Below are positions 44,179-61,766 of a stretch of 64,000 nucleotides of DNA, one piece after another. The notes below the pieces were generated by a model that saw nothing but the letters and a program-made list of their open reading frames with translations, was not told the DNA's origin and made no database searches. Source of the stretch: a gamma proteobacterium symbiont of Stewartia floridana (GTDB lineage: Bacteria > Pseudomonadota > Gammaproteobacteria > Chromatiales > Chromatiaceae); assembly GCA_003676145.1 (NCBI GenBank), contig NAUB01000034.1, forward strand, positions 1-64,000, in the 5' to 3' direction. Each line of letters starts with the position of its first letter. Position 1 is the first letter of the stretch. The position numbers were made by a program, and so were the translations under genes.

Positions 44179-47100
44179 CTACGCCTTCAAACCTGGAGTC
44201 TTGCATATCACGCCGGCAGTTGTCTTTGATTTCGCGATCCACTCTGTGAATATCGCTTCAGGGAGCGGTTGTGATATCAGATACCCCTGTATATTCGTAC
44301 AGCCCAGTTTACTCATATCCGATAATTGGCGAGAGTCCTCAATACCCTGTAATATTACGGCTTTACCAGACGACTCTGCTAATGCGAGTATGCTTTTAAC
44401 CAGCACAATCTGACCATCTTTCTGGGTTATAGTTTTCAGTTGGTTGATATTTATCTTTATCTGTTCGACTGACAATTGTGCCAGTTGAATTACCGATAAC
44501 TCACCAGCCCCGATACCACCCAAAATACAGTCAATTTCCAGCTTATTGCATGCTTTGATAAATTGATTTGCCTTGGTATATGAAGTAACAACGTCAGACT
44601 CCTGAATCTCAATATTGATACGATGCCGAATCGCCGGGTCCAAGCTTTCTGTATTTCGTTTTAAGAGCTCAAGAATCCCCGCATCAAAACACTGCTCTGG
44701 AAAAAGATTGAATGAGACCGGAAAAGCGGATCCGTTTGACTTTTGCTTTGACACATAACTGACAACCTGCTTCAAAACCCAATCCGTGATGGAAAGTTTG
44801 ATTTCGTAACGATTCAGCAAGGGAAGAAACTCAGCAGGTTTCAGCAACCCCAGAATTGGATTGTTCCATCTCAACAGAACCTCGCAACTGGTCACGCAAC
44901 CATTTACGCAATCCACCACAGGTTGATAGTAGACCTCCAGCTGGTCCTCACTAAGCGCTCTCACCACATCCCCAAGCACTTCCTGCTGTGCAAAAATTCG
45001 GCGCTCCAACTCCTTGCTATAGAATTGATATCGATTCTTTCCCAAACGTTTGGCTAGATACATAGCCTGATCTGCATGACGTATCAGGCCATCTGCATCC
45101 GTATTATCAACCGGATAGAGTGTCACACCAATACTTGCGCTAACATTGCTGACATTGATATCACCGATAGAGTAAGCTTTTGACACCTGTTCAAGAATAC
45201 GCCCCAGAATATTCTGGGTTTCATGTTGATCATTCAATCCTGCCAGTAGAATAAGGAACTCATCTCCTCCCAGGCGTGAAACGGTATCACCATATCGGAC
45301 ACAAAGACCCAGTCGACTTGCCGTTTGCCTGAGCAGTTTATCACCAGCCTCATGACCGTAAGAGTCATTCACCTGCTTGAAACCATCGAGATCAAGATAG
45401 CAGACCGCCATCAACTCGCTGGTTCGATCAGCCCTGGCTGTCATCTGCTGCAGACGGTCGATTGCGAGCATTCTATTTGGTAGTTTTGTCAAGTTATCAT
45501 AATGTGCAAGCTGCTCCAGCTTAGCTTCACTGTTCTTTTCGTCTGTTATATCTGTGATTACTGAAACTGCGCCGGTAATGGATGATATTTTGCTATCATA
45601 GAGGGCATGTACAGAGAGACTGATCCATGCAGACTCCTGATCTCCTGACTCATGTTCTATTTGACATTTATCGACCGACTCTCCATCCACCAACAAACCT
45701 TGCAGATGTTCATCAATATAGGAAGCAAATGGGTAAGCGCTATCTAATTCTTTCAGTGTCTTTCCGATACACTCGGTAATCGCTGTCTGCTCTTTTTGAC
45801 TGACTATCAAATTGAGAAATTCAGGATTTGCATAGCGCAATCGACCCTGATTATCCCAAAGAGCCACGGCCTCAGAAACGGTATCCAGAATCGTATTGAG
45901 TTGAATTTTGCTCTCTTCGATCTTTTCCTTGATAATTTTACTTTCAGCCAACTCCCAGGTCAGCTCGGCGATCTGCTCGACTTTTTGCAGTTCAGTCTCA
46001 CCATACTGGCCATGATTTCGATTACCAACACCCATCACCGCCACTACGCGATCATTACTCAAAACCGGAACACACAACTCCGATTTCATTTCAATAGTGC
46101 CATAGGTTGTTCTTTTTAATCTATCAATGGAGGCATTTTCATTTTGAATTATTGGCTTCTTTAGCCTACAGACCACTGACCAAGTCTCACCATCTTTCCT
46201 GTCAACCGCTGGTTCATTGGCAATTACACTGACCACGTTATCCTGATCTGACGCCAATACCTGCATAGTCACCGATTTCCGGTCTGGATCAATGAAGTAG
46301 TAAAAGCCCAACTCGCTATCTGTTGTTGCACAAGCCTCTCCAATTGCAAATTTGAGAAGCTCCTTTGTCGTATGGTTTTGAGCAAAATCGTGCAAGTTCA
46401 CTCTAGCGCTCATCAATTCCTCATTGAACTTCCTCTCTGTAATGTCAATAAAGGAGACCACCACCCCTTTTCTATCGGAATTCTCGATGAGTGGATATGA
46501 CCAATACTCTACAGGAAAACTGCTGCCGTCCTTTCTCCAGAACACTTCATCTTCCACATGCACCTGCTGTCCGGATGTTGTGGATTGATACATTGGACAG
46601 GCTTCTCTTTCATACACATTTCCATTATGACGCGTGTGATGCATGACATCATGCATCACCCTACCCTTCAACTCCTCTTCATTCGCATAACCCAGCTGTT
46701 CGAGACATGCCTTATTGACACTGATACAGATACCATTTTCATCCAGCACGTAAATAGACTCTGCTGTTGAGTTCATGATCAGCTTCAAATACTCTTCGCT
46801 TGCTTTTAAAGCGCTCTCTATCTGTTTTTTATCACTCACTTCGGTAATAAAACCTTCGATCAAGCCACGCCCCTCTTCATCCTCAATCAGAGAACCTCTC
46901 TCCCAAACCCAATGAACCCCATTGTTTCTATCCAATATTCTGTACTCAATCTCAAATCGGTCATGCTCACTGATTGCATTAAACACATGACTTTTGACAA
47001 ACTCTTTGTCATCCTGATGTATCAAGTCAGAGTACTTCACCAGATTGTTATTCTTGATATCATTCGCCTCATAACCCGTGATATCCTCAATTCCTTCACT

Positions 47101-49644
47101 GATAAACTGCATTGTCCAGTAATCGTCATTTTTACATCGATAAGCAGCACCAGGCAGATTATCCAAAAGCGTACTAAGTATGCGCCTGGAACTTCTCAAG
47201 TCAGCCACAATCGTCTGTCTTCTGATTGCACCGGTCATAAGATCTGCAACCGTATGCATCATGGGTAGATCATCTTTTAACCAGGCATACTCAACGATCG
47301 ATTGATCCAACCCAAGAAAACCGAGCAAACGATTATTGATTCTTATCGGCACCCCTTTCAGGGTTAAAATACCAAGCTCATTCAATTCCCGCTTGCAATC
47401 ACCCATTTCCCCCACGAGCTCATCAATCGAGCCAATAAAGTCGACATCTCCATTTTGAAAAAAATCGACCAGGCAAGGAAATATTATATTTGCCCTCTGA
47501 TCAAACAGATTCTGAAGTGGTTGCTTTCCCTCTACGCACCACTCGTTTGTCAGCATTGCCCGGTTATCCTCGCCCATAACTCTGATCAAGTAGGCTCTCG
47601 AACTACCTGTCAACTGCCCAAGTTGGGCCAAAAGACTATCAAAACTCTCCTGCATCTCAACCACACCCGCACCAACCAGGCGTGATGAATGCTCAGCAAC
47701 CATTCGCTCATATTCCAACCGGTAACTGAGCTCAAGCTCATTCTCCTTTCTTTTCGTTATATCTTCAGCAATACCTGCAATCCGATAACATTCACCCTGA
47801 TCGTTTTTGATCGCAAAAGCCTTAGCCTCAATCCACCTCATAGAGCCATCGGGACGATACACACGATATTCAGGAAAGGTCAGCTCAACCCAATTTTTTG
47901 AACGCTCTTCACTGAGGAATGCTTCCACACACTTTAAATCACTTTCCGGCAACGCCTCCAGCCAGATCATCGCGTCATCATAGAGCGACTCTCTGCTTCT
48001 CCCCCAAATCTGCTCGTAACCTGGACTGATATAAAAGACTTTTTGCCAGTCCGGCGAACCCAACCAAAAGACCTCTTTGATTGAATGTGTCAGTTGATTA
48101 AATTTCTCTTCGCTCTCTCTTAATCTACTACGCTCTTTTCTTAATGCATTGATATCGCGTACCAATGACAAAATGCCAGAGGTGTTTTGCTGATCATCCC
48201 TCAATCTGCTCGTATTTACCTGCGTCCATACTTCATCACCATTTCTGTTTACAAACTTAACCTCATAAGACCCACTCTCTTCCAGCCCACCTCTTAACAG
48301 ATTATCTGCCGCCTCAATACTTGATCGCTCAGCTATATATTCATGTATTGACTGCCCGATAATTTCATTCAGGCCATAGCCAAGCATATTCGCCAGCCTG
48401 TTATTGGCAAACAAAATTCTACCATCCATATCGAGTTGAAAAATTCCATCATGACTGCTTTCAACTATTCTTCTGTAGCTCTCTTCACTCTTCAGCATCT
48501 CCACTGTTAACTGCCTGTAGCGTCTGAACAACGCCACAAAAACAGAACCAACCACCAACAGCAATATCAAACCGGCAACCGTAAAATAGAAGTAGCTCTT
48601 ATATTGATAAGACTCATCTTCAGGCAGGTTCACCCAGTGGGTTTCTCTTGGAAACTTCTTTTCATCCAATCCAAAGCTAAGTACCAAACGGTAATCGAAA
48701 TAGGGCACATTCGGGCTGGTTCTGTTGACCTTTAAACTATCGATGGAAATGCCTTCTAAAACCTGTTTTGCCAATCTTGCTGCCTGCCTCCCTTGCTCAT
48801 AGTGATCAATCATGATTCCACCGAAAATCCCACTCTTCAGTCCATGCTGCCAGAAGTGAAAAATTGGCGCACCTGACGCTTCCACTATCAGTTTAAGGCT
48901 CTCATCAAAAGATCTACTAATACTGTCTTTATCCCTATAGGCCGATAGTAAAAAAACAAGCTCTTTTGCATCAATATTTTTGACCCGCTCTTCCAGTTCA
49001 GCCCACGTCATATCCAGAAGAGACAGAGTCTCTATCTCCAAGTCGTCGTATTCCTGGAATACTTTTTTAAAACGTTCATAATCATTCTGGCCACTGGTTG
49101 TACCATCTACAATCACATAACTCTTATCGGCGTTTGGAAAGAGCGATTTGGCTAAATCCAGATTCTCTTTAAATGAAGGTATTTCAACGACTCCGGTATA
49201 ACCTTTTCGCTGTTCCAGTTGAAGCGCTAATTCCAAACTGTTAATCCCGAGAAAAACAATCGGAATTCCCTCAAACAGGCTCTCTCCATATCCGGATACC
49301 GTTTCCAATGCATGGTCGTCTGATACAATGACCAAGTCGTACGCTTGCCTGTAATTCAGCTTGTAACTCAGTTGCTGAAGAAAATTGATCTGGCTCTGCG
49401 CATCATACAAGCGCTTTGAATCCATGAATTCAATGTCAACCTTTGGTCCATCAAAGGTAAAAACGGATCGGATACCATTTAAAATTCTTGGCGTTGTTGG
49501 AAAACCGGGATGATAGGAATAGATCAGCAACACTCTCTTTTCAGAGAATGGTGTATCTGCCATTGACGCACAACCAAATAAGAACAGTGCGCCAAATAAC
49601 AGACATTTCACAAAGCGCCCATAACTCATGCTGCAAGCACCCAT
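44179..49644 (-). CDS. Giant sensory diguanylate cyclase with degenerate EAL domain
   Basis: The 1,821-residue protein has an N-terminal signal or lipobox region (LFGC, C25), a periplasmic ABC substrate-binding-like domain (about 35-340), one membrane helix (about 350-373), then PAS (390-500), PAS (515-635), GAF-like (650-810), PAS (820-945), PAS (950-1075), GAF (1085-1235), PAS (1245-1370), GGDEF (1375-1545) and EAL (1555-1805). GGDEF is intact (1459-1463) with an I-site RYGD (1450-1453). In the EAL domain E-V-L replaces E-A-L (E1588), and the DDFGTG motif is GGIGAG (1709-1714), removing both metal-site aspartates, so phosphodiesterase activity is unlikely. An ATG at M6 is also possible. Confidence 0.9.
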   Translation of the reverse strand: MGACSMSYGRFVKCLLFGALFLFGCASMADTPFSEKRVLLIYSYHPGFPTTPRILNGIRSVFTFDGPKVDIEFMDSKRLYDAQSQINFLQQLSYKLNYRQAYDLVIVSDDHALETVSGYGESLFEGIPIVFLGINSLELALQLEQRKGYTGVVEIPSFKENLDLAKSLFPNADKSYVIVDGTTSGQNDYERFKKVFQEYDDLEIETLSLLDMTWAELEERVKNIDAKELVFLLSAYRDKDSISRSFDESLKLIVEASGAPIFHFWQHGLKSGIFGGIMIDHYEQGRQAARLAKQVLEGISIDSLKVNRTSPNVPYFDYRLVLSFGLDEKKFPRETHWVNLPEDESYQYKSYFYFTVAGLILLLVVGSVFVALFRRYRQLTVEMLKSEESYRRIVESSHDGIFQLDMDGRILFANNRLANMLGYGLNEIIGQSIHEYIAERSSIEAADNLLRGGLEESGSYEVKFVNRNGDEVWTQVNTSRLRDDQQNTSGILSLVRDINALRKERSRLRESEEKFNQLTHSIKEVFWLGSPDWQKVFYISPGYEQIWGRSRESLYDDAMIWLEALPESDLKCVEAFLSEERSKNWVELTFPEYRVYRPDGSMRWIEAKAFAIKNDQGECYRIAGIAEDITKRKENELELSYRLEYERMVAEHSSRLVGAGVVEMQESFDSLLAQLGQLTGSSRAYLIRVMGEDNRAMLTNEWCVEGKQPLQNLFDQRANIIFPCLVDFFQNGDVDFIGSIDELVGEMGDCKRELNELGILTLKGVPIRINNRLLGFLGLDQSIVEYAWLKDDLPMMHTVADLMTGAIRRQTIVADLRSSRRILSTLLDNLPGAAYRCKNDDYWTMQFISEGIEDITGYEANDIKNNNLVKYSDLIHQDDKEFVKSHVFNAISEHDRFEIEYRILDRNNGVHWVWERGSLIEDEEGRGLIEGFITEVSDKKQIESALKASEEYLKLIMNSTAESIYVLDENGICISVNKACLEQLGYANEEELKGRVMHDVMHHTRHNGNVYEREACPMYQSTTSGQQVHVEDEVFWRKDGSSFPVEYWSYPLIENSDRKGVVVSFIDITERKFNEELMSARVNLHDFAQNHTTKELLKFAIGEACATTDSELGFYYFIDPDRKSVTMQVLASDQDNVVSVIANEPAVDRKDGETWSVVCRLKKPIIQNENASIDRLKRTTYGTIEMKSELCVPVLSNDRVVAVMGVGNRNHGQYGETELQKVEQIAELTWELAESKIIKEKIEESKIQLNTILDTVSEAVALWDNQGRLRYANPEFLNLIVSQKEQTAITECIGKTLKELDSAYPFASYIDEHLQGLLVDGESVDKCQIEHESGDQESAWISLSVHALYDSKISSITGAVSVITDITDEKNSEAKLEQLAHYDNLTKLPNRMLAIDRLQQMTARADRTSELMAVCYLDLDGFKQVNDSYGHEAGDKLLRQTASRLGLCVRYGDTVSRLGGDEFLILLAGLNDQHETQNILGRILEQVSKAYSIGDINVSNVSASIGVTLYPVDNTDADGLIRHADQAMYLAKRLGKNRYQFYSKELERRIFAQQEVLGDVVRALSEDQLEVYYQPVVDCVNGCVTSCEVLLRWNNPILGLLKPAEFLPLLNRYEIKLSITDWVLKQVVSYVSKQKSNGSAFPVSFNLFPEQCFDAGILELLKRNTESLDPAIRHRINIEIQESDVVTSYTKANQFIKACNKLEIDCILGGIGAGELSVIQLAQLSVEQIKININQLKTITQKDGQIVLVKSILALAESSGKAVILQGIEDSRQLSDMSKLGCTNIQGYLISQPLPEAIFTEWIAKSKTTAGVICKTPGLKA

Positions 49645-49822: not shown

Positions 49823-50776
49823 TCATTCTGACCGCAAAAGGTAAATCGCAAACATACCTTGATCATCCACCCAATACCGAAGCGATTTGAAACCGTTCAT
49901 AGCGGCCATAGAGATAAACTCTTGCGGGGAGTATTTATAGGAGTTCTCAGTATGCAGATATTCGCCCTCCTCGAACTCAAACTCATGACGATCCAACCTT
50001 AAGGTATGCTTAAGCTTACTGATCAAATGCATCTCGATCCGACCCGCCTGAGTATTGTAAAAGGCTTTATGTGCGAAGTTATCCGGGTTCAGATCCGCAT
50101 TGAGTTCGTTCTGCACCCGATACAACAGATTCAGATTAAATTCAGCTGTTAAACCGGCAGCATCGTTGTAGGCAGCATTCAACAGGCCATGGTGTTTCTT
50201 CGTATCTATGCCAATCAGCAGCATTCCATCTCTACCCACAGTGGCGTGCACCAACCTCATGAATTCACTCGCTTCCTGTTTATTGAAATTCCCCAGGCTG
50301 GATCCGGGAAAAAACAGCAACCTTGGACCAATGGGTACATCCTCAGGTACCGGCAAGGAGTGGGTATAATCGACACAGGCGGCTCGGATGGAGAGCCATG
50401 GATACTCCTCGGCCAGTGCCGTGGCACTCGATTTCAGATATTCAAAGGAGATATCCATTGGTACAAAGGCGCTCGGTTGCAAGGCATCCAGTAACAATCT
50501 GACTTTGCTGGCGCTGCCTGCTCCAGGCTCGATCAAAACCCTACCGCGACCGGCCAGATCAGCTATTTCTGCAGCATTTTGCTCAAGCATCCGCCGCTCC
50601 ACAGTCGGCAGATAATATTCCGGTTGTTGGCAGATTTGGTCAAATAACTCAGAGCCACGTTTATCATAGAAAAACTTGGGCGGAATCGATTTCTGTTGCT
50701 GCGACAGTCCTTGCACCACCGCATCATACAAACTCAACGTTTCAGGTTTGTGGTCATGAAAGGTTACATTCTCCAT
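49823..50776 (-). CDS. egtD: L-histidine N-alpha-methyltransferase EgtD
   Basis: The 317-residue enzyme (from ATG 50776; a longer GTG/ATG start would overlap egtB) methylates histidine to hercynine, the first step of ergothioneine synthesis. It has the SAM motif VLIEPGAGSASKVRLLLD, VPMDISFEYL and PRLLFFPGSSLGNF. The start overlaps the egtB stop by one base (TGATG). Ergothioneine protects thiols against oxidants. Confidence 0.93.
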   Translation of the reverse strand: MENVTFHDHKPETLSLYDAVVQGLSQQQKSIPPKFFYDKRGSELFDQICQQPEYYLPTVERRMLEQNAAEIADLAGRGRVLIEPGAGSASKVRLLLDALQPSAFVPMDISFEYLKSSATALAEEYPWLSIRAACVDYTHSLPVPEDVPIGPRLLFFPGSSLGNFNKQEASEFMRLVHATVGRDGMLLIGIDTKKHHGLLNAAYNDAAGLTAEFNLNLLYRVQNELNADLNPDNFAHKAFYNTQAGRIEMHLISKLKHTLRLDRHEFEFEEGEYLHTENSYKYSPQEFISMAAMNGFKSLRYWVDDQGMFAIYLLRSE

Positions 50777-52050
50777 CACACATCCTCCGCCAGACGCACG
50801 CCTGTAAAAGCCCATCGTTCATCCGGATAAAAAAAGTTTCGATAACTCGCCCGGGTATGCCCCGCTGGAGTGATACAACTCCCTCCCTTGAGCACAATCT
50901 GATTGGACATAAATTTACCGTTGTACTCTCCCATACTTCCCTCTAAGGGTTTGAATCCCGGATATGGGGTATAGGGAGAGGCTGTCCATGCCCACAGATC
51001 ACCAAACCACTGCCCAGTATCTCCAGCCGGCGCAGGATGGAACCGATCCCTTTCGGCAAAATGTCCTTCAACCGGGAGTTCAGCCAACATGGACTCCAGT
51101 TCCGCTTCCATCGGCAGGCGTTTTCCGGCCCATCTGGCATAGGCATCCGCTTCAAAGTAATTCAGATGGCAGACAGGTTCATCCCGGTTTAGTGGCCTGA
51201 CGCCTGCCAGGGTGAACTCCATCCACTCTCCCTCCTGTTGCCAATAGAGAGGCGCTCGCCAACCCTCACCCTGAATCTGCGCCCAACCGTCGGCAAGCCA
51301 CAGCGCCGGCTGCCGATAACCACCATCCTCGATGAAATCGAGATATTCCCCATTGGTCACGAAGCGGTCTGCCAGCCGATGATCGCGCAACAACACCTTG
51401 TGACGGGGAGTTTCGTTGTCATAGGCAAATCCCTGCTCAGCATGACCGATCTCATGAATCCCACCGGTTCGTTCCACCCAGCCCGCGCCGCGCCCGGAGT
51501 TGGCAGTTTCCGACAAATCCTCCCGATAGACCGGCTTGAGAGGGTTCATAAAGAAATTGTGCTTGATATCCATCAGCAACAACTCCTGATGCTGCTGTTC
51601 ATGGTTCAAGCCGAGTATCACCCGGAAGGCAAGCTCATCCCATCGGCAGGCACTGGTGTCACTCATCAGTCTCTCCATCGCACGATCGACAGTTTGGCGA
51701 TAGCGGTAGACCTGATCGACCGTCGGTCTCGACAGAAGCCCCCTGTCTGCCCTGGGATGCATCTTTCCGTGGGTATAGTAGTAGCTGTTGAAGAGATAGT
51801 CGTAACGCCCGTCGAAGCAGGTATAACCCTCATCGAAAACAGTCAGCACAAAGGTTTCGAAGAACCAGGTGACATGGGCAATATGCCACTTCGGTGGACT
51901 GGTCTGCAGGATCGACTGAATCTGGTAATCATCCACTGAGAGGGGTGCACAGAGGGTTTCCGTCGCATTACGAACACGTCGGAACTCCTCTATCAGCAAC
52001 TCCCGGTCGGTTTGCGGTGCAATAGCTGTATCCATTTGAATGTTATTCAT
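50776..52050 (-). CDS. egtB: Ergothioneine biosynthesis protein EgtB (sulfoxide synthase)
   Basis: The 424-residue protein has an N-terminal DinB-like helical domain with the iron-binding histidines (KWHIAHVTWFFETF, LNHEQQHQELL) and a C-terminal formylglycine-generating-like domain ending in GGSCITPAGHTRASYRNFFYPDERWAFTGVRLAED. EgtB joins hercynine with gamma-glutamylcysteine or cysteine using oxygen. Only EgtB and EgtD are here; the other steps may be encoded elsewhere. Confidence 0.93.
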   Translation of the reverse strand: MNNIQMDTAIAPQTDRELLIEEFRRVRNATETLCAPLSVDDYQIQSILQTSPPKWHIAHVTWFFETFVLTVFDEGYTCFDGRYDYLFNSYYYTHGKMHPRADRGLLSRPTVDQVYRYRQTVDRAMERLMSDTSACRWDELAFRVILGLNHEQQHQELLLMDIKHNFFMNPLKPVYREDLSETANSGRGAGWVERTGGIHEIGHAEQGFAYDNETPRHKVLLRDHRLADRFVTNGEYLDFIEDGGYRQPALWLADGWAQIQGEGWRAPLYWQQEGEWMEFTLAGVRPLNRDEPVCHLNYFEADAYARWAGKRLPMEAELESMLAELPVEGHFAERDRFHPAPAGDTGQWFGDLWAWTASPYTPYPGFKPLEGSMGEYNGKFMSNQIVLKGGSCITPAGHTRASYRNFFYPDERWAFTGVRLAEDV

Positions 52051-53533: not shown

Positions 53534-54142
53534 TTAACCACGTGATTGGTTACCGGAGAGTGATTCGAAGCCGGCTTCCGATAACTGCTCTGGAAAATCC
53601 ACATCGAGCAGAATTCCGGGATCATCCACTGGCAGCAACTCCAGGTCACTGGGGTAATCGATGAGCAGCTGTCTGGCCCCACGATCTCCGCTCAACTCAA
53701 CCAGCCGCTCTCCCCAACGGGTCGCAAAACCAACCGGATGTCCCCGCTCCCCCTTATACACCGGGGCAACCATGGAAGCCCCCTGTGCCAACCGCTCAGC
53801 CACTTCTGCAATGGTTTGCGGATTTATCCAGGGCATATCACCCAGCGCAACCAGCCAGCCTCCTGCATCGACCGAAGCAGTGACTGCCACAGCCAGACTC
53901 TCACCCATACCGGACTCCGGCTGCTGATTCTCCACCACCCGATAACCCAAATCAGAAAGGGCGGCCGACAACTCGACATCATCCGGTCGAACAACCGCTA
54001 CTCCCCGGGATACAGCAGTCAACAGGTGCCGTGCCGCTATCACCCCCATCGGCTCACCACCTGCCATCGGTTGCAACAACTTATTGGCGCCGAAACGGCG
54101 GCTGCTGCCGGCTGCCAGTAGAACACCAATCGGAGGTGACAT
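53534..54142 (-). CDS. MocA-type molybdenum cofactor cytidylyltransferase / NTP transferase
   Basis: The 202-residue protein has the nucleotidyltransferase opening VLLAAGSSRRFGANKLL and the acidic GDMPWI motif. MocA adds CMP to the molybdopterin cofactor needed by xanthine-dehydrogenase family enzymes. It lies two bases after xdhC in the molybdenum hydroxylase operon, which fits that role. Other NTP transferases in the MobA-like family cannot be fully excluded. Confidence 0.82.
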   Translation of the reverse strand: MSPPIGVLLAAGSSRRFGANKLLQPMAGGEPMGVIAARHLLTAVSRGVAVVRPDDVELSAALSDLGYRVVENQQPESGMGESLAVAVTASVDAGGWLVALGDMPWINPQTIAEVAERLAQGASMVAPVYKGERGHPVGFATRWGERLVELSGDRGARQLLIDYPSDLELLPVDDPGILLDVDFPEQLSEAGFESLSGNQSRG

Positions 54143-54144
54143 GC

Positions 54145-55134
54145 TTAAACTCCAGCCATGCTGCCCGCACCAACACGATTGCGCACAGCGGTGACCTGCG
54201 CCATGATCGAGAGGGCGATCTCAGCAGGACGCTTGCTGCCGATTGGCAGGCCTGCCGGGGCGTGAATGCGGGCAATCTGCTCGGCAGTGTGGCCGATCTC
54301 TGTCAGCCGCGCCCGGCGTTTTTCCGCGCTGCGCCGGGAACCCAGTGCGCCAATATAGAACAGAGCCCGCTCCAGTGCGGCCGTCAGTCCCAGGTCGTCC
54401 TGCCGGGGGTCGTGGGCCAGAGTGACTACGGCGGTTCGGGCGACATCCTTCAATCTGCGCACTTCGTCATCCGGCATCCGCTTTGAGTAGTGAACACCCA
54501 CTAGCGGATTTTCTTCAATGAACTCGGAGCGCGGATCGCAGATTATCACCCGGTAATCGAGACTGATCGCCATTCGCGCCAGATGACAGGCGATCTGACC
54601 ATTGCCGATCAGCAACAGCTGCCAGGCTGGGCCGAACACCTTGGTGACCGATTCACCGGTCACTTCAAACTCGACACCAGCCCCACCGGTCTGCAGAGTG
54701 ACCTCGCCGCTTTCCAGTACCACCCGGCGAGCAGTCAGCTGGCCATCCTGTAATAGATCCAGCAGAGGTTTCAGGGCGTCGGCCGAGTCGAGTAGTTCGA
54801 TCATCAGCTCGAGGCGACCGCCACAGGGCAGACCCAGTCGTTCCGCCTGAGCTTTTTCAACCCCGAAATCGACCAGTGACGGATACGCTCCCCCCAGTTC
54901 TCCTTTACGGTGGCTCGCGACCAGGGTCTCCTCCACACAACCGCCGGACACCGAGCCGACGGTGTGGCCAGACGCATGGATCGCCAGCAGGGAGCCTGGC
55001 GGTCTTGGTGATGAACCCCAGGTTTTCAGCACCGTGACCAGCGCCACCCTTACCCCGTCAGCCAACCAGCCGGAGGCTGTACGAATCACCTCCAGGTCGT
55101 CGGAGACCAGACCGGATGTGTCAGGGTATCCCAT
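54145..55134 (-). CDS. XdhC/CoxI family maturation factor
   Basis: The 329-residue protein has the N-terminal XdhC domain (VTVLKTWGSSPRPPGSLLAI, SVSGGCVEETLV) and a C-terminal Rossmann domain (LLIGNGQIACHLARMA, ALGSRRSAEKRR, IHAPAGLPIGSKRPAEIALSI). XdhC proteins bind the molybdenum cofactor and help sulfurate and insert it into xanthine-dehydrogenase-like enzymes. The start overlaps the iorB stop (TGATG). Confidence 0.9.
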   Translation of the reverse strand: MGYPDTSGLVSDDLEVIRTASGWLADGVRVALVTVLKTWGSSPRPPGSLLAIHASGHTVGSVSGGCVEETLVASHRKGELGGAYPSLVDFGVEKAQAERLGLPCGGRLELMIELLDSADALKPLLDLLQDGQLTARRVVLESGEVTLQTGGAGVEFEVTGESVTKVFGPAWQLLLIGNGQIACHLARMAISLDYRVIICDPRSEFIEENPLVGVHYSKRMPDDEVRRLKDVARTAVVTLAHDPRQDDLGLTAALERALFYIGALGSRRSAEKRRARLTEIGHTAEQIARIHAPAGLPIGSKRPAEIALSIMAQVTAVRNRVGAGSMAGV

Positions 55135-57323
55135 CAGCCCAGCCGCAGCGGCAGCTGACGCAGTCGCTGCCCGGTTGCCGCAAAGACCGCATTTGCCACT
55201 GCCGGGGCAATCACCGGTGTTGCCGGCTCACCGACGCCTGTGGGGGCTTCAGCGGAAGCCACAATATGCACTTCAACCTCCGGCATCTGATCGATTCGCA
55301 ATATCCGATAATCAGTGAAATTGGACTGTTCGACCCGCCCCTCTCTGAAGGTCAGCTCACTCAATAGGGTCGCAGAAAGACCGAATCCCATACCTCCCTC
55401 CATCTGCGCCACAACCACATCCGGGTTGACCGCCACACCACAATCCACCGCGATCACCACCCGATCCACACTGATCACATTACGACGTACCGAGACCTCA
55501 ACCACCTGGGCGACGTAGGAGTTGAATGACTCATGCACGGCGATCCCCTGTCCCCGATTGCGTCCCATGGGTTCACCCCAACCGGCCTTTTCCGCCGCCA
55601 GATTCAACACACCCAGATGTCGCGGATGGTTACGCAGCAGTTTACGCCGATAGGCCAGCGGATCCTGCCCCGCCTTGACCGCCAACTCATCGATGAAACA
55701 CTCCACCGCGAAGGCGGTGTGGGTGGAACCGACAGCGCGCCACCAGAGTACCGGCACAGGCAGTTCGGGCGAGTGCAGATCGACCTGGATATGTTTGATC
55801 TCATAGGGCAGATTCGCCGCCCCCTCCACGGAGGTCATATCGACACCGTCCTTAACCATCACCGACTCGAACGGGGTGCCTTTGAGGATCGACTGCCCCA
55901 CGATACGCTGATCCCAGACATGGGGCTCTCCCTGATCATTCAGGGCAGCGCGCATTCGGTGCAGATAGAGCGGACGGTAGTAACCCGCATGCGTATCATC
56001 CTCCCGTGTCCAGACCATTTTCAGCGGGGTGCCCGGTTTCAGCGCTTTTGCGATATGCACCGTCTCCAGCAGATAGTCCGCTGCCGGATTGGCCCGACGA
56101 CCGAAAGAGCCTCCCGCATAGAGCATGTTGATATGCACCTGCTGCGGCTCGAGACCCAACAGAGCGGCAATCTGATGCTGATCACTGGTCTGCATCTGCT
56201 CCCCATTCCATACCTCGCATCCCGCTTCGTCGATGCGCACCACGCAATTCATAGGCTCCATCGCCGAGTGGGAGAGAAAGGGTACGCTGTACTCCGCCTC
56301 GATGGCGTCATCAGCCGATGCCAAGGCAGTTGCACCATCCCCCTCGGTTCGGGCTGTCAGTCCCGGTTTCTCCGCAAGCTGCCGGTAGTCTTCCAGAATC
56401 TGCGCAGAACTCTTGCGAAAGGCCTTCGACTCATCCCAGCTTACAGAGAGTGCGTCCCTGCCCAGTTTTGCCTGCCAGAAATCATCAGCAACCACCGCCA
56501 CCCCGGAGGGAATCTGAATCACCTCTCTGACACCCTTCACCGCCAGAACGCCCTTAGCGTCGATTTTCGACAGCGTGGCGCCAAGCCGGGGGGGATGTAA
56601 CACCACTGCGGTCAGCATGCCGGGCAGTTTCACATCCTGGGTGAAGATGGCCTGGCCATTGATCTTCTCCGGGCTGTCCTTGCGGGGAACGCGTTGACCG
56701 ATCAAGCTGAACGATTTGGGATCTTTAAGCATCACCGACTCGGGTACAGACTGCTTGGCCGCCAGCTCCGCCAACTCGCCAAATCCGGCTTGTCGACCGC
56801 TCGGTGGATGGCTGATCACCCCGGACTTGACCTTGATCTCAGCCGCCTCTACCTGCCACTGTTTGGCGGCGGCCTGAACCAGCATCTGCCTGGCGGCCGC
56901 CCCGGCCTTTCTCATCTGTTTCCAGGAGTTGGCAATGGCCGTACTGCCACCGGTGCCCTGAGCCTTGCCCCAGAAAAGGTTGTTATAGCGTCCGGCATCC
57001 GCAGGTGCCCCTTCCACTCTGACCTTCTCCCAATCTGCATCCAGCTCTTCCGCCACCAGGGTTGCCATACCGGTATAGGTACCCTGCCCCATCTCAAGAT
57101 GTTTGGAAATGACAGTGACGATGCCATCCCCATCGATACGCAGAAAGGCATTGGGTGAGAAATCCCCAGCGGTCTCAGGCGCCTGCCCGGCGATTCCCGG
57201 CCCGGCTTCCCGCTGTTCGGCCGCCACCGTGGGGATAATGCCCAGAGTCAAACCGGCCAAGGACACCGCACTCCCCGCGACAAATCGACGACGACTGAGA
57301 TTGACGATTTGATCGGTTTTCAT
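55134..57323 (-). CDS. Molybdopterin-binding subunit of an isoquinoline 1-oxidoreductase-like hydroxylase
   Basis: This 729-residue protein has a twin-arginine signal ([17 protein letters not shown], residues 9-25), so the enzyme is exported folded. It belongs to the IorB branch of the xanthine dehydrogenase family with typical motifs such as [29 protein letters not shown], and [17 protein letters not shown]. It hydroxylates aldehydes or N-heteroaromatics with water. The small Fe-S subunit gene overlaps its start by four bases. The substrate cannot be told from sequence. Confidence 0.9.
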
Positions 57324-57787
57324 GACTGCACCCCGTTCAGCTTATCCGCAGCCACTTTGATTGCCTGACGAATTCGCGCATAGGTTGCACAGCGACACAG
57401 GTTACCCTGCATAGCCTGATCGATATCCGCATCGGTCGGTTTACGGTTTCGCTGCAGCAGCGAGGCCGCCGACATGATCTGTCCCGACTGACAGTAGCCG
57501 CACTGCACCACCTCCAGCTCTCTCCACGCCGCCTGTACCGCCTGACCGGCCGGACTGGAGAGCCCTTCGATGGTAGTCACCTGCTTACCCACCGCATCGG
57601 ATACCGGTGTGATACAGGCGCGAACCGGTGCCCCATCGAGATAGACCGTACAGCTGCCGCACTGGGCAATGCCGCAACTGTATTTGGTGCCTGTCAGGCC
57701 GACATGATCCCGGATGGCCCAGAGCAGCGGGGTCTGAGGGTCAAGATCGAGCGCGTGACGCTCTCCGTTAATCGACAGATTCAACAC
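57320..57787 (-). CDS. [2Fe-2S] subunit of the molybdenum hydroxylase (IorA-like)
   Basis: I chose the GTG at 57787 because GAGGAGG stands five bases upstream; the ATG further out adds 17 poor residues. The 155-residue product has both expected clusters: the plant-type Cys set in [17 protein letters not shown], and the C-terminal set in [10 protein letters not shown] and [11 protein letters not shown]. It passes electrons from the molybdenum site. It starts the iorA-iorB-xdhC-mocA operon. Confidence 0.92.
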
Positions 57788-57838
57788 ATCAACCTCCTCG
57801 TGGTAGTGCCCGCTGTTGATGGCAATCAGGCATGGCAC

Positions 57839-58466
57839 ATTAGCGATGTTTAATATTTTTTATGAGAACCCTGACAAAGCCGTTATAGCGGCGTGAGCCG
57901 CAATACTGATAAAGAGAATTAATCAAATATTCTTATTTCAAAGGTACAGAGTAACGTAGTTTTGAAAACCATAATCCTTTCAAGTTCCCAGGCCACACAA
58001 ATACCATCCTGTTCCGCAAATAATAGCCGATTCAGCACCAATTTGAGGCGCCAAAGGCGCTTTTTGAGGGTTTGACAAACACACATTTCTTAACGTAATC
58101 GAATAGCCAGGAGATGTTGAACATAGGATGACGCTTTCAAGACAGAAGAGACATGAGCGATCGGAGACAGCGATCTGCTTAAGAGTGGTTCAGACACTGT
58201 TCAACAGCCTTTAACACGCCAACAGCAGCCATCACTTGAAACAAAGCTCTCTAATCTGGCAGCACCATTCCATATCGATCACTAACCCAGTTGTTCTGAA
58301 TGTGAACAAATCATCTGCCTGATTGGTAATTTTCCACAGCCCATGCCGCTCCGGTTTCTGTAGCTTAACACCCAGTTCGATCAGGGATCGTTCTTCAAGG
58401 GAGTATCCAGGCAGTTAACGGATCATCCAGTTCTTTCTTACACGATATAAATAAAGGATCAAACAC
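57839..58466. other. 628-bp intergenic region with an orphan terminator and promoter-like element
   Basis: It contains no obvious coding frame. A terminator-like hairpin is at 58048-58065, and TTGACA lies at 58071-58076. The stretch after that could form a long leader of about 370 nt before the secreted protein gene. Confidence 0.4.
58048..58065 (+). terminator. Orphan rho-independent terminator
   Basis: GCGCC-AAA-GGCGC followed by five T. No plus-strand gene lies upstream before the divergent iorA gene, so it may end a small RNA or be a relic. Confidence 0.45.
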
Positions 58467-60356
58467 ATGGATATTGTAAAAAAATCCAATAAAGCGGTAA
58501 CGATCGCATTGTGCTGTTCAGCCATTGGCCTGCAGGGAGATGCATTCGCCAAGGATCTACCGGTCTATCACGCAATCGATAATGGCCTGTCGGAAAATCA
58601 AGCCTATCAACTGTCGAAGTTACTTGATACCAACCCGGATGGCATCGATTTCGAAACAGTACAACGAACCGGTGAACTCAGCTACATCGATTTAAAAAAC
58701 CATCAGTACATACCAACCCGGATTGTCGGTCGGGGCGAGGCAGACGAAGAGAAGCGGTCAACCACCATTGAGCAGATCGACTTTGATGCCCTGTCGATGA
58801 TCCAGCCGGTAGAAGAGGATGTGGTTCTGCATCAACTGGAGGGCTCGTTGGATGAGATCGGTCTCTTGCCACAGGTCTATAAACCGATACTGCGTCACAC
58901 CCAGTTCGAAGCGGTGGACATCGATGGCAATACCCTGGCCGATCAGATGATCGATACCAAGGTGGACCTGCAACTCTACGCCGGCGATACACCACTGATC
59001 GGACCTGGCGCCAAAATCTCCGCCAGCGTAGGCAGTGAAGGCACCACCACTCGACTCCATTTTGCCAACCGTACACTGGAACAGGGTGAAACGGTGCCTG
59101 TCATCGACCACTCGGCAGCCAGACTGCAGTGCCAAGAGAAACTTCTGAGTGGGGCACAGAGTAAGGCCTTTGAAAAGCTCAATATCACCACTCAACTTGT
59201 CTACTATGCGCCGAGCCTGGAAATGACCTCGGTGAAGACCATCCAGCCACACTATGATTGCGGTGGAACGGCCGTCGTGGATGGTGAGATCGTCAATCTT
59301 CTGCATCAACTGATCCCCGCGGTAGACAGTAGCGAATATGTTCCGGAAGTGAGCCTCGACAGCTGGTTCGACGGCAAGACCGTCAATGCAAAAGTCGATA
59401 TCAATGGTGGAATGCCTCCCTACCAGATCGACTGGAGCGCCACTCGCGCAAAACTTCAGGATAGGAGCGGTTCAACGATCTCTTTTTATCCCCAGCAGCG
59501 TGATGGAATCAGTGAAGAGAGTGTCAGCGTTACGGTGACCGATGCGAATGGTATTCAGCGTGTGGTCACTGCCAACCTGCCTGCCAATCTGATCTCGCAA
59601 CACGATGAGTCTGCAGTCAGTCGCTTCTTCACCAATGCGGTTACCGCCATGCTTGAGACATTGATCCCTGCGGTGCAGGCGATTGGTGGCATTACCGATT
59701 ACGGCACTGAGAATGCGGTGACCAATGAGTTTGGCGATCTTGAACAGGGCTTTATCGATCGCATGCAGAGTGCCGGTGTCACCGAGCGCTTCAGCTGGTC
59801 CGGAACCCTGGCCTGGGAGCAGGATTTCAAAGCCAGTCAGGACAGCAACTGGATCGACAATACCGATATGACCTTCTATGTCGGCCACGGCTATGGGGGT
59901 GGATTCACCTTCGAAGACAACAGCCATGACGACGGCACTCTGGACCATGACGACGCCACCGATGATTGGGGTGACAAGGATCTTGAGTGGCTGGCGCTGC
60001 TCTCCTGTCAGGTCCTCAAGGATGACTGGAGCGGCATGTCCCGCTTCGACCGCTGGAAGCAGGAGTTCGACGGTCTCCATCTGCTGCTTGGCTTCCATAC
60101 CAATGCCTATGCCTGGAACAGCTTCTCCGGCGAGTTTGCGGACAACATGCTGAAAAGCAGCCCGATGACCGTGAAAACCGCCTGGTTCGAGGCCACCGAC
60201 ACCAACCAGCCATCCGGTGTGGTCCCGGTGGTCATGGGCGTGTTGGGCAACAATGGCATGTCGAACATGAACGACTACTTCTGGGGCAAGGGATCCGTCG
60301 GACCGGATATCCGGGATGGGGACATCATCGGCTACTGGAGTATTAAAATTCTGTAG
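58467..60356 (+). CDS. Secreted DUF6345-like protein with possible caspase-fold His/Cys dyad
   Basis: The 629-residue product has a signal peptide ending near GDAFA (residue 28), an N-terminal region of unknown fold (30-280), and an Ig-like stretch (about 295-375, GGMPPYQIDWSA). The C-terminal domain (about 405-629) resembles DUF6345 as I remember it. It contains H474 in TFYVGHGYGGG and C514 in LALLSCQVL, in the order and style of clan CD cysteine peptidases (CHAT, gingipain, caspase). DGxxLDHDDATDD lies between them and may bind calcium. Protease activity is inferred, not shown. A strong terminator follows. Confidence 0.75.
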   Translation: MDIVKKSNKAVTIALCCSAIGLQGDAFAKDLPVYHAIDNGLSENQAYQLSKLLDTNPDGIDFETVQRTGELSYIDLKNHQYIPTRIVGRGEADEEKRSTTIEQIDFDALSMIQPVEEDVVLHQLEGSLDEIGLLPQVYKPILRHTQFEAVDIDGNTLADQMIDTKVDLQLYAGDTPLIGPGAKISASVGSEGTTTRLHFANRTLEQGETVPVIDHSAARLQCQEKLLSGAQSKAFEKLNITTQLVYYAPSLEMTSVKTIQPHYDCGGTAVVDGEIVNLLHQLIPAVDSSEYVPEVSLDSWFDGKTVNAKVDINGGMPPYQIDWSATRAKLQDRSGSTISFYPQQRDGISEESVSVTVTDANGIQRVVTANLPANLISQHDESAVSRFFTNAVTAMLETLIPAVQAIGGITDYGTENAVTNEFGDLEQGFIDRMQSAGVTERFSWSGTLAWEQDFKASQDSNWIDNTDMTFYVGHGYGGGFTFEDNSHDDGTLDHDDATDDWGDKDLEWLALLSCQVLKDDWSGMSRFDRWKQEFDGLHLLLGFHTNAYAWNSFSGEFADNMLKSSPMTVKTAWFEATDTNQPSGVVPVVMGVLGNNGMSNMNDYFWGKGSVGPDIRDGDIIGYWSIKIL

Positions 60357-60383
60357 GGCAATTTAGGATCATTTGGTAAAGCG

Positions 60384-60415
60384 AACCCGATTCAGTCAGC
60401 TGAATCGGGTTTTTT
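60384..60415 (+). terminator. Rho-independent terminator after the secreted protein gene
   Basis: AACCCGATTCAG and its complement CTGAATCGGGTT form a near-perfect stem, followed by a T-run. It lies 28 bp after the stop codon. Confidence 0.9.
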
Positions 60416-60467
60416 CATGCGCATTGAATATGACAATGTAACGAAACCTTTACGATCACTCACTACC

Positions 60468-60498
60468 ATTTGCGTTCATTCGCGTTCATTTGCGGACT
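60468..60498 (-). repeat. Half copy of the GAACGC-type element upstream of dinB
   Basis: Two tandem units related to GCGTTCATTCGCGTTCATTT and GCGGACT match the right arm of the element at 29975. It ends 53 bp before the dinB start. Confidence 0.6.
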
Positions 60499-60551
60499 GA
60501 AAACGGTAACAAGCAGGTTTCCACACCCGGTTCCTGGTATAAACTCCCAGC

Positions 60552-61766
60552 ATGAGTGAACGCCTGATCATGCATATCGACCTGGATGCCTTCTTTGCCT
60601 CGATTGAGCAACGGGACCATCCGGAGTACCAGGGCCGTCCCCTGGTGGTGGGTGCAAAACCCGGCCGACGGGGGGTTGTGGCAACCTGCTCCTACGAAGC
60701 CAGACGGTACGGCGTACGTTCGGCCATGCCGATCAGTGAAGCGGCCAGACGCCTGCCGCCAGAAGCAGTCTACCTGCGCCCCGATATCAACCGCTATGGA
60801 GAGGTTTCGCAACAGATCATGACGGCTCTGCAGAACCTCTCACCGGTGGTGGAGAAGGTCTCTGTGGATGAGGCCTTTCTCGATATCACCGGCATGGAAC
60901 GCCTGATCGGCGACCCCGCATCGATCGGTCAGCAGGCAAAACAGCTGATCCACGATCAGGTAGGCTTGACCGCTTCGGTGGGAGTCGGGCCAAACCGTCT
61001 GATCGCAAAACTCGCTTCCGACTATCAGAAACCGGATGGTCTGACGGTGGTTTCTGCCGATCAGGTCGAGGCGTTTCTCAACCCCCTGCCACTGACGGTA
61101 CTGCGGGGTCTCGGCAGCAAAAGCGCCCCCATCCTGCAACGTCTGGGACTGCGCACGGTTGCCGATGTCCGTCGACTCTCCCTGCTGGAACTGCGCCGCC
61201 ATTTAGGCAATCTTGCAGGCACCAATATCTATCAGCAGGCCCAGGGTATCGCCTCAAACAGGGTCGACGATCAGTCGACACGCAAGTCGATCTCCAAGGA
61301 GACGACCTTTGACCGGGACATCACCGATCCAGCGATCCTGCGGGAGAGTCTCCACTGGTCGGCCCAAGAGGTGGGGTATGTGGCCCGCCAGGAGCAACGC
61401 AAGGGCAGTCTGGTGACCCTGAAAATCCGTTTTCGCGGATTCGATACCCATACCCGCAGCCGCAGCCTGACCTCCCCAACGTCAGCGGATCAGGAGATTT
61501 TCAATATCGCCTGGGAGCTCTACCAAAATGAATCCTGGGATGACCAGCCGGTGCGCCTGATCGGCCTTGGCATCAGTGGTTGGGATGGAGCCGATGATGA
61601 ACCGGAGCGACAGCCGGACCTGTTTGGTGATCCGGCGCCGGTTAGCGATGAGCGGCAGGACCGGCTCTATCAAACCCTGGATGAGGTGAGTGGTAAATTC
61701 GGTAGACACGCCATTCGCCTGGGCAGTAAGCGAGTCGATGCCAAATCCGGTTCAGGATCAGAGTAG
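60552..61766 (+). CDS. dinB: DNA polymerase IV
   Basis: This 404-residue Y-family translesion polymerase has the catalytic acidic residues in MHIDLDAFFASIE and KVSVDEAFLDITG. The steric and little-finger domains follow (GVGPNRLIAKLASDYQKPDG, RGLGSKSAPILQRLGL). The end is short, with a QPDLFGDP segment that could be a beta-clamp-binding motif. No LexA box was found in the 200 bp upstream; the region instead carries a repeat half. Confidence 0.96.
   Translation: MSERLIMHIDLDAFFASIEQRDHPEYQGRPLVVGAKPGRRGVVATCSYEARRYGVRSAMPISEAARRLPPEAVYLRPDINRYGEVSQQIMTALQNLSPVVEKVSVDEAFLDITGMERLIGDPASIGQQAKQLIHDQVGLTASVGVGPNRLIAKLASDYQKPDGLTVVSADQVEAFLNPLPLTVLRGLGSKSAPILQRLGLRTVADVRRLSLLELRRHLGNLAGTNIYQQAQGIASNRVDDQSTRKSISKETTFDRDITDPAILRESLHWSAQEVGYVARQEQRKGSLVTLKIRFRGFDTHTRSRSLTSPTSADQEIFNIAWELYQNESWDDQPVRLIGLGISGWDGADDEPERQPDLFGDPAPVSDERQDRLYQTLDEVSGKFGRHAIRLGSKRVDAKSGSGSE

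Follow-up and report, generated by a model that had tools for sequence, protein, structure and literature searches.

DUF6345 as a probable, unrecognised family of clan CD-type cysteine peptidases, represented by a probably exported protein of a gammaproteobacterial symbiont

The gene at positions 58467 to 60356 (forward strand) of the window, i.e. the whole stretch of 64,000 nucleotides analysed here (contig NAUB01000034.1 of assembly GCA_003676145.1, from a gammaproteobacterial symbiont of Stewartia floridana), encodes a probably exported protein with a C-terminal DUF6345 domain (PF19872), and sequence comparison makes it quite probable that DUF6345 is an unrecognised family of cysteine peptidases of clan CD type, with the caspase/haemoglobinase fold. 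The reading frame runs from ATG to TAG without internal stops and specifies 629 amino acids plus the stop. A Pfam scan of the protein placed DUF6345, the proposed clan CD-type catalytic domain, at residues 410-627 (59694 to 60347, forward strand) with a score of 235.9 bits (E 4.7e-70; cut-off 26.9 bits); an NCBIfam scan gave a single weak match, far under its cut-off, and no mention of 'DUF6345' or 'PF19872' as names was found in the literature searched. A sequence-only reading had singled out a histidine in YVGHGY and a cysteine in LALLSCQVL, about 40 residues apart, as a possible dyad, and these positions were confirmed. H474 (codon CAC, 59886 to 59888, forward strand), the proposed catalytic histidine, is in the GHG motif of residues 471-476; C514 (codon TGT, 60006 to 60008, forward strand), the proposed nucleophile, lies within residues 509-517 and is the sole cysteine of the domain; the spacing is exactly 40. 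The domain has the features of the clan CD motif, i.e. a conserved His followed by a Cys, the His in GHG and the Cys after a hydrophobic stretch. Since the same His-Cys pair stands in a similar setting in caspase-type enzymes, DUF6345 is probably an overlooked branch of them.

Few features of DUF6345 are as well conserved as the His/Cys pair. Our searches gave 53 matches, which reduced to 42 distinct domains and to 30 non-redundant ones below 92% identity. Conservation of the two residues had been set beforehand as the test that could refute the dyad, and they were found to be conserved: H474 is present in 42 of the 42 distinct domains and C514 in 39. The exceptions are two Paracoccus domains with Ser at this position (L168 and L169) and one domain (L163) whose Cys lies one residue further on (LDASC), so that an alignment slip is possible there. 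In the non-redundant set of 30, where pairwise identity averages 34% and falls as low as 14%, four positions never vary, H474 being one of them; C514 is kept in 27 rows and ranks about 15th in conservation among the 226 positions. Were two positions drawn blindly, the probability that both fell in the top 15 would be roughly 0.4% (15/226 x 14/225). An alignment of 19 picked domains, from which near-identical copies such as L016 were left out and whose rows are 16-97% identical to the window domain, has six invariant columns (D464, H474, G475, G502, C514 and W530) and a His-to-Cys spacing of 34-43. From the residue numbers in the excerpt of PMC4357240 consulted, the corresponding spacing is 42 in caspase-7 (His144/Cys186) and 49 in MARTX-CPD (His91/Cys140).

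We compared DUF6345 with three clan CD families by profile-profile alignment, using hhalign unsupervised and C25, CHAT and C14 domains taken from genomes of the same class (13 of 15, 13 of 22 and 20 of 30 loci fetched, respectively); C11, with only three matches, was left out. With a 14-row DUF6345 core the probabilities were 14% for C25 (23 columns), 17% for CHAT (49) and 5% for C14 (63). With 19 rows they were 26% for C25 (score 34.3, 102 columns), 28% for CHAT (score 33.9, 119 columns) and 14% for C14 (score 29.5, 65 columns), or 12%, 36% and 20%, respectively, when match columns only were used. In the 19-row alignments with C25 and CHAT, H474 is opposite the histidine of GHG/SHG and C514 opposite the catalytic cysteine, and the matches continue past the Cys through GLHLLLGF and beyond; the 19-row C14 alignment (64 columns, match columns only) stops after the His, before the Cys. 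With 30 rows the C14 probability was 59% over 150 columns, from well upstream of the His to past the Cys, and C25 and CHAT gave 11% and 21%, with the His and the Cys paired in each of the three families; match columns only gave 17% for C25, 43% for CHAT and 40% for C14 (69 columns). The probabilities are therefore modest overall (5-59%) and vary with rows and trimming (12-36% with 19 rows, 11-59% with 30), and the C14 match spans 150 columns in one version and 63-69 in the others.

Controls were run on both sides of these values. When columns were shuffled, none of 100 and then none of 150 shuffles per family reached the real score (best shuffle 25.8 versus 29.5-35.1 for the real profiles); reversed profiles scored 12.7-15.4, and profiles of dinB (rows chosen by a crude longest-frame filter) and of the N-terminal domain scored 12.7-23.4. 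Accepted clan CD pairs, used as positive controls, gave 87% (C25-CHAT), 97% (CHAT-C14) and 55% (C25-C14), mostly above DUF6345. Ranking by the DUF6345 profile separated 46 clan CD domains from 162 other sequences with an AUC of 0.876, and from all 292 others, i.e. including 130 sequences from the clan CD loci themselves, with an AUC of 0.861, the 'other' sequences being longest frames or pieces of these rather than verified genes. Against the 162, the AUC was 0.978 for C14, 0.839 for C25 and 0.754 for CHAT. The top of the ranking also holds unused frames from clan CD loci (e.g. L042, L091 and L094), an unrelated window frame (49826 to 50818), which ranks seventh of 338, and, equally high, the L010/L002 pair. 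In single-sequence local alignments H474 was opposite a His in 9 of 13 C25, 4 of 13 CHAT and 18 of 20 C14 domains (background 18 of 162), and C514 opposite a Cys in 2 of 13, 12 of 13 and 0 of 20, respectively (background 19 of 162).

Scanned against the C25, CHAT and C14 Pfam models, the 19 members gave no match with an E of 10 or less (HMMER filters drop most matches above 0.1), so DUF6345 is not filed in those families, and PDB searches by protein and by profile matched no clan CD chain. The proposal of a C-terminal protease of clan CD type is thus upheld in part, in that the dyad is conserved and superposes on the dyads of C25, CHAT and C14, while searches by sequence did not by themselves reveal any clan CD family. 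Each of the three families resembles DUF6345 in its own way. Peptidase_C25 (gingipain-type, PF01364) has a GHG followed by a Cys in the same order, its 102-column match pairs both residues and continues past the Cys, and it has an N-terminal prodomain (excerpt of PMC4357240); its profile, however, has 374 positions, far more than the roughly 220 of the DUF6345 domain, and a search of the symbiont's own genome for it gave no match. For CHAT (PF12770), profile matches of 119 and 100 columns pair both residues, and five of the six loci listed with both motifs have a His-Cys spacing of 43-46, the sixth having 60, but the CHAT match of the symbiont's genome is a different protein. Peptidase_C14 (caspase/metacaspase, PF00656) has YYAGHG and D[SA]C motifs at many loci and matches DUF6345 over 150 columns through the GHG and the Cys, although the length of this match depends on trimming. 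CHAT and Peptidase_C14 each match once in the own genome (G000:C31:186732-187538 and G000:C19:1959-2627, respectively). The eight clan CD families named in the excerpt of PMC12445089 (C11, C13, C14, C25, C50, C80, C84 and C123) do not include DUF6345. The same excerpt argues that YabG, despite a lack of sequence similarity, belongs in clan CD on the grounds of its dyad and its specificity for Arg; the argument for DUF6345 is of the same kind, with the difference that the activity of YabG had been demonstrated. On these sequence comparisons, clan CD kinship of DUF6345 is likely and a peptidase function probable; a preference for a basic P1 residue would be a guess by analogy with other bacterial clan CD enzymes.

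Three other accounts of the pair have to be weighed against a peptidase. H474 and C514 could be structural or metal-binding, in a domain that is either not enzymatic or a hydrolase of a different kind. This would agree with sequence searches that match no known enzyme family, with the modest profile probabilities and with the other invariant residues D464, G502 and W530, which could be structural; AlphaFold, moreover, gave models too poor to establish a fold, with a pLDDT of 36 for the full-length protein (6 alignment rows) and 31.5 for the DUF6345 domain (7 rows). In the domain model, helices alternate with strands at 468-473, 509-516 and 542-547, beginning and ending with a helix; this arrangement would suit a clan CD domain, but the confidence is too low for it to serve as evidence. 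A Foldseek search with the model against the PDB gave 223 hits up to an E of 10 and not one at 0.001 or below. However, across the 19 rows the domain has no second conserved Cys that could share a metal or a disulfide with C514, and the pair aligns with the catalytic dyad in each of three families, which makes this account unlikely. Six of the 19 rows have no Cys in the domain other than C514, and a disulfide within the domain is ruled out in these.

Instead of a general protein hydrolase, the caspase fold could also serve an enzyme of sorting or transpeptidase type, which would cleave surface proteins and join them; the C25 member PorU and the legumain ligases are enzymes of this type. Such an enzyme would draw on the same dyad evidence as a peptidase, and the signal-peptide-like N-terminus would suit it, as would the Ig-like domain that may lie between the companion domain and the catalytic one. 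We nevertheless hold it to be distinctly unlikely, as no partner or substrate gene recurs in 18 neighbourhoods: among frames of at least 120 amino acids, one group occurs at 5 of the 18 loci, two groups at 3 and the remainder at 2 or 1, and the DUF6345 frame itself was recovered at all 18. A third account, in which a clan CD fold is retained for binding and catalysis has been lost, is suggested by the Paracoccus plasmid proteins. Seven such records were found and four read (L168-L171), and in all four the GHG is kept and Ser replaces Cys (FWSTS, FWAAS). HS and YS variants of metacaspases and YS variants of orthocaspases are known (excerpt of PMC6426788), and the Paracoccus His-Ser proteins are possibly a pseudo-peptidase branch. 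As an account of the window protein, with His-Cys kept in it and in 39 of the 42 distinct domains, lost catalysis is very improbable. An active clan CD-type peptidase is the reading that we carry forward.

The N-terminus, MDIVKKSNKAVTIALCCSAIGLQGDAFA-KD, looks by eye like a Sec-type signal peptide with AFA as the cleavage site, in agreement with the sequence-only reading; the probable signal peptide comprises residues 1-28 (58467 to 58550, forward strand), with the cut after AFA, and the start of close relatives resembles this region. C16 and C17 of the signal peptide suggested a lipoprotein, but by eye they are without a lipobox and this candidate was rejected; L005 keeps only one of the two. 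Residues 30-286 (58554 to 59324, forward strand) form an N-terminal companion domain that is common to 16 multi-domain relatives, with 17 invariant columns. Its cysteines C222 and C265, which are both present in every row except L019, which has neither, probably form a disulfide. Between the companion and DUF6345 domains, at about residues 293-372 (59343 to 59582, forward strand), we tentatively place an Ig-like/SprB-like linker domain: 4 of 8 relatives scanned gave sub-threshold SprB or Big_9 matches (best E 3e-4), and the Pfam scan of the window protein itself gave none. Downstream of the gene, a 12-bp perfect stem with a 4-base loop followed by a T run (60384 to 60411, forward strand; complementarity confirmed) is a probable intrinsic terminator. 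It is absent from the terminator-scan output, and no RNA family matched in window positions 57000-61000.

The companion domain is found on either side of DUF6345. In a second architecture DUF6345 comes first and the companion domain follows (L025, L033, L034 and L164-L169), and the tails after DUF6345 (aligned from L025, L033, L034, L164, L166, L167 and two Paracoccus proteins) are homologous to residues 30-286, with an hhalign probability of 95.9% against the N-terminal domain (E 6e-9, 145 columns). This homology shows that the companion domain goes with DUF6345 whichever side it is on. There are also small forms (L008, L023 and L024), with an open frame of 228-283 amino acids around the domain. 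Residues 129-164 of the L025 tail match positions 16-48 of the 51 of FTP (the fungalysin/thermolysin propeptide motif, PF07504), in a segment common to the tails and the N-terminal domains; unlike a true FTP match, this one is below threshold (E 0.11, 12.9 bits against a cut-off of 21) and occurs in one of 8 tails, none of which exceeds the cut-off, and none of the 16 N-terminal companion domains matches FTP. The either-side placement together with this match makes a propeptide or inhibitor role the first guess, and the companion domain is perhaps a propeptide that assists folding or inhibits the enzyme. The S1 pocket of C25 receives an Arg from a loop of the N-terminal prodomain (excerpt of PMC4357240). 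By comparison, the window protein would be exported by the Sec route and its companion domain would hold the enzyme latent, as the prodomain does in C25; removal of the companion domain would free the clan CD-type site, where C514, at the end of the hydrophobic stretch LALLSC, would attack a peptide bond after activation by H474, which lies at the end of another such stretch, MTFYVGHG. A fuller picture, which we offer tentatively as a real possibility short of probable, is of a new clan CD family outside the eight in the excerpt of PMC12445089, made up of latent enzymes with a propeptide-like companion domain before or after the catalytic domain (the latter in the L025/L033/L034/Paracoccus class) and of His-Ser pseudo-enzymes in Paracoccus.

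The named loci closest to the gene are from Candidatus Thiodiazotropha (L002-L004), a genus of lucinid clam symbionts, with proteins 97, 97 and 95% identical. The symbiont's genome (36 contigs, 97% complete) has a single DUF6345 match. Of 22 genomes in its genus, 8 have a match: in six it is the full protein (91-100%, own included; the five further full-length copies are 91-97% identical) and in two a more distant one (44% over residues 428-626 and 30-31% over the N-terminal part). Matches occur in 2 of 369 genomes of its class (own included), in 4 of 394 Actinomycetes, the class of Pseudosporangium (which is included), and in 27 of 354 Micromonosporaceae (10 in an earlier sample of 150), a share that is no gauge of where DUF6345 is commonest because this family was searched hardest. 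Plasmid records, one from Deinococcus and seven from Paracoccus, list no animal host and give soil, a bioreactor or a hot-spring pond where a source is stated; among 14 control genomes Methanosarcina acetivorans matches, and no relatives were found in the viral contigs and phages searched. Relevance to host contact, which the sequence-only reading had suggested, is not borne out, with relatives also in Micromonosporaceae, Deinococcus and Paracoccus: the scattered taxonomic distribution gives no indication of animal hosts, and the window copy may still be used in symbiosis.

Beside the gene, at 53534 to 57838 (reverse strand), is a four-gene set that we take to be of molybdenum hydroxylase type (small and large subunits, an XdhC-like gene and a nucleotidyltransferase-like gene), and further away the reverse strand has an open frame of 1821 amino acids (44179 to 49644). 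In 7 genus genomes that have a dinB 72-74% identical but no match to the window protein, none of four window neighbours lies within 1.5 kb either side of dinB. In two genomes of the genus (L132 and L133) the dinB homologue contains one in-frame TAA within the match. Sensor-kinase/PAS-type genes stand near the DUF6345 gene at 5 of the 18 loci (L019, L106, L109, L112 and L118), a recurrence that is perhaps due to chance, this being a common kind of gene.

If DUF6345 is a clan CD-type peptidase, a Pfam family of unknown function, which here spans Gammaproteobacteria, Actinomycetota, Deinococcota and Alphaproteobacteria together with the match in Methanosarcina acetivorans, would become a testable peptidase family with a named active site, and the companion domain's change of sides would make inhibition in cis directly testable.
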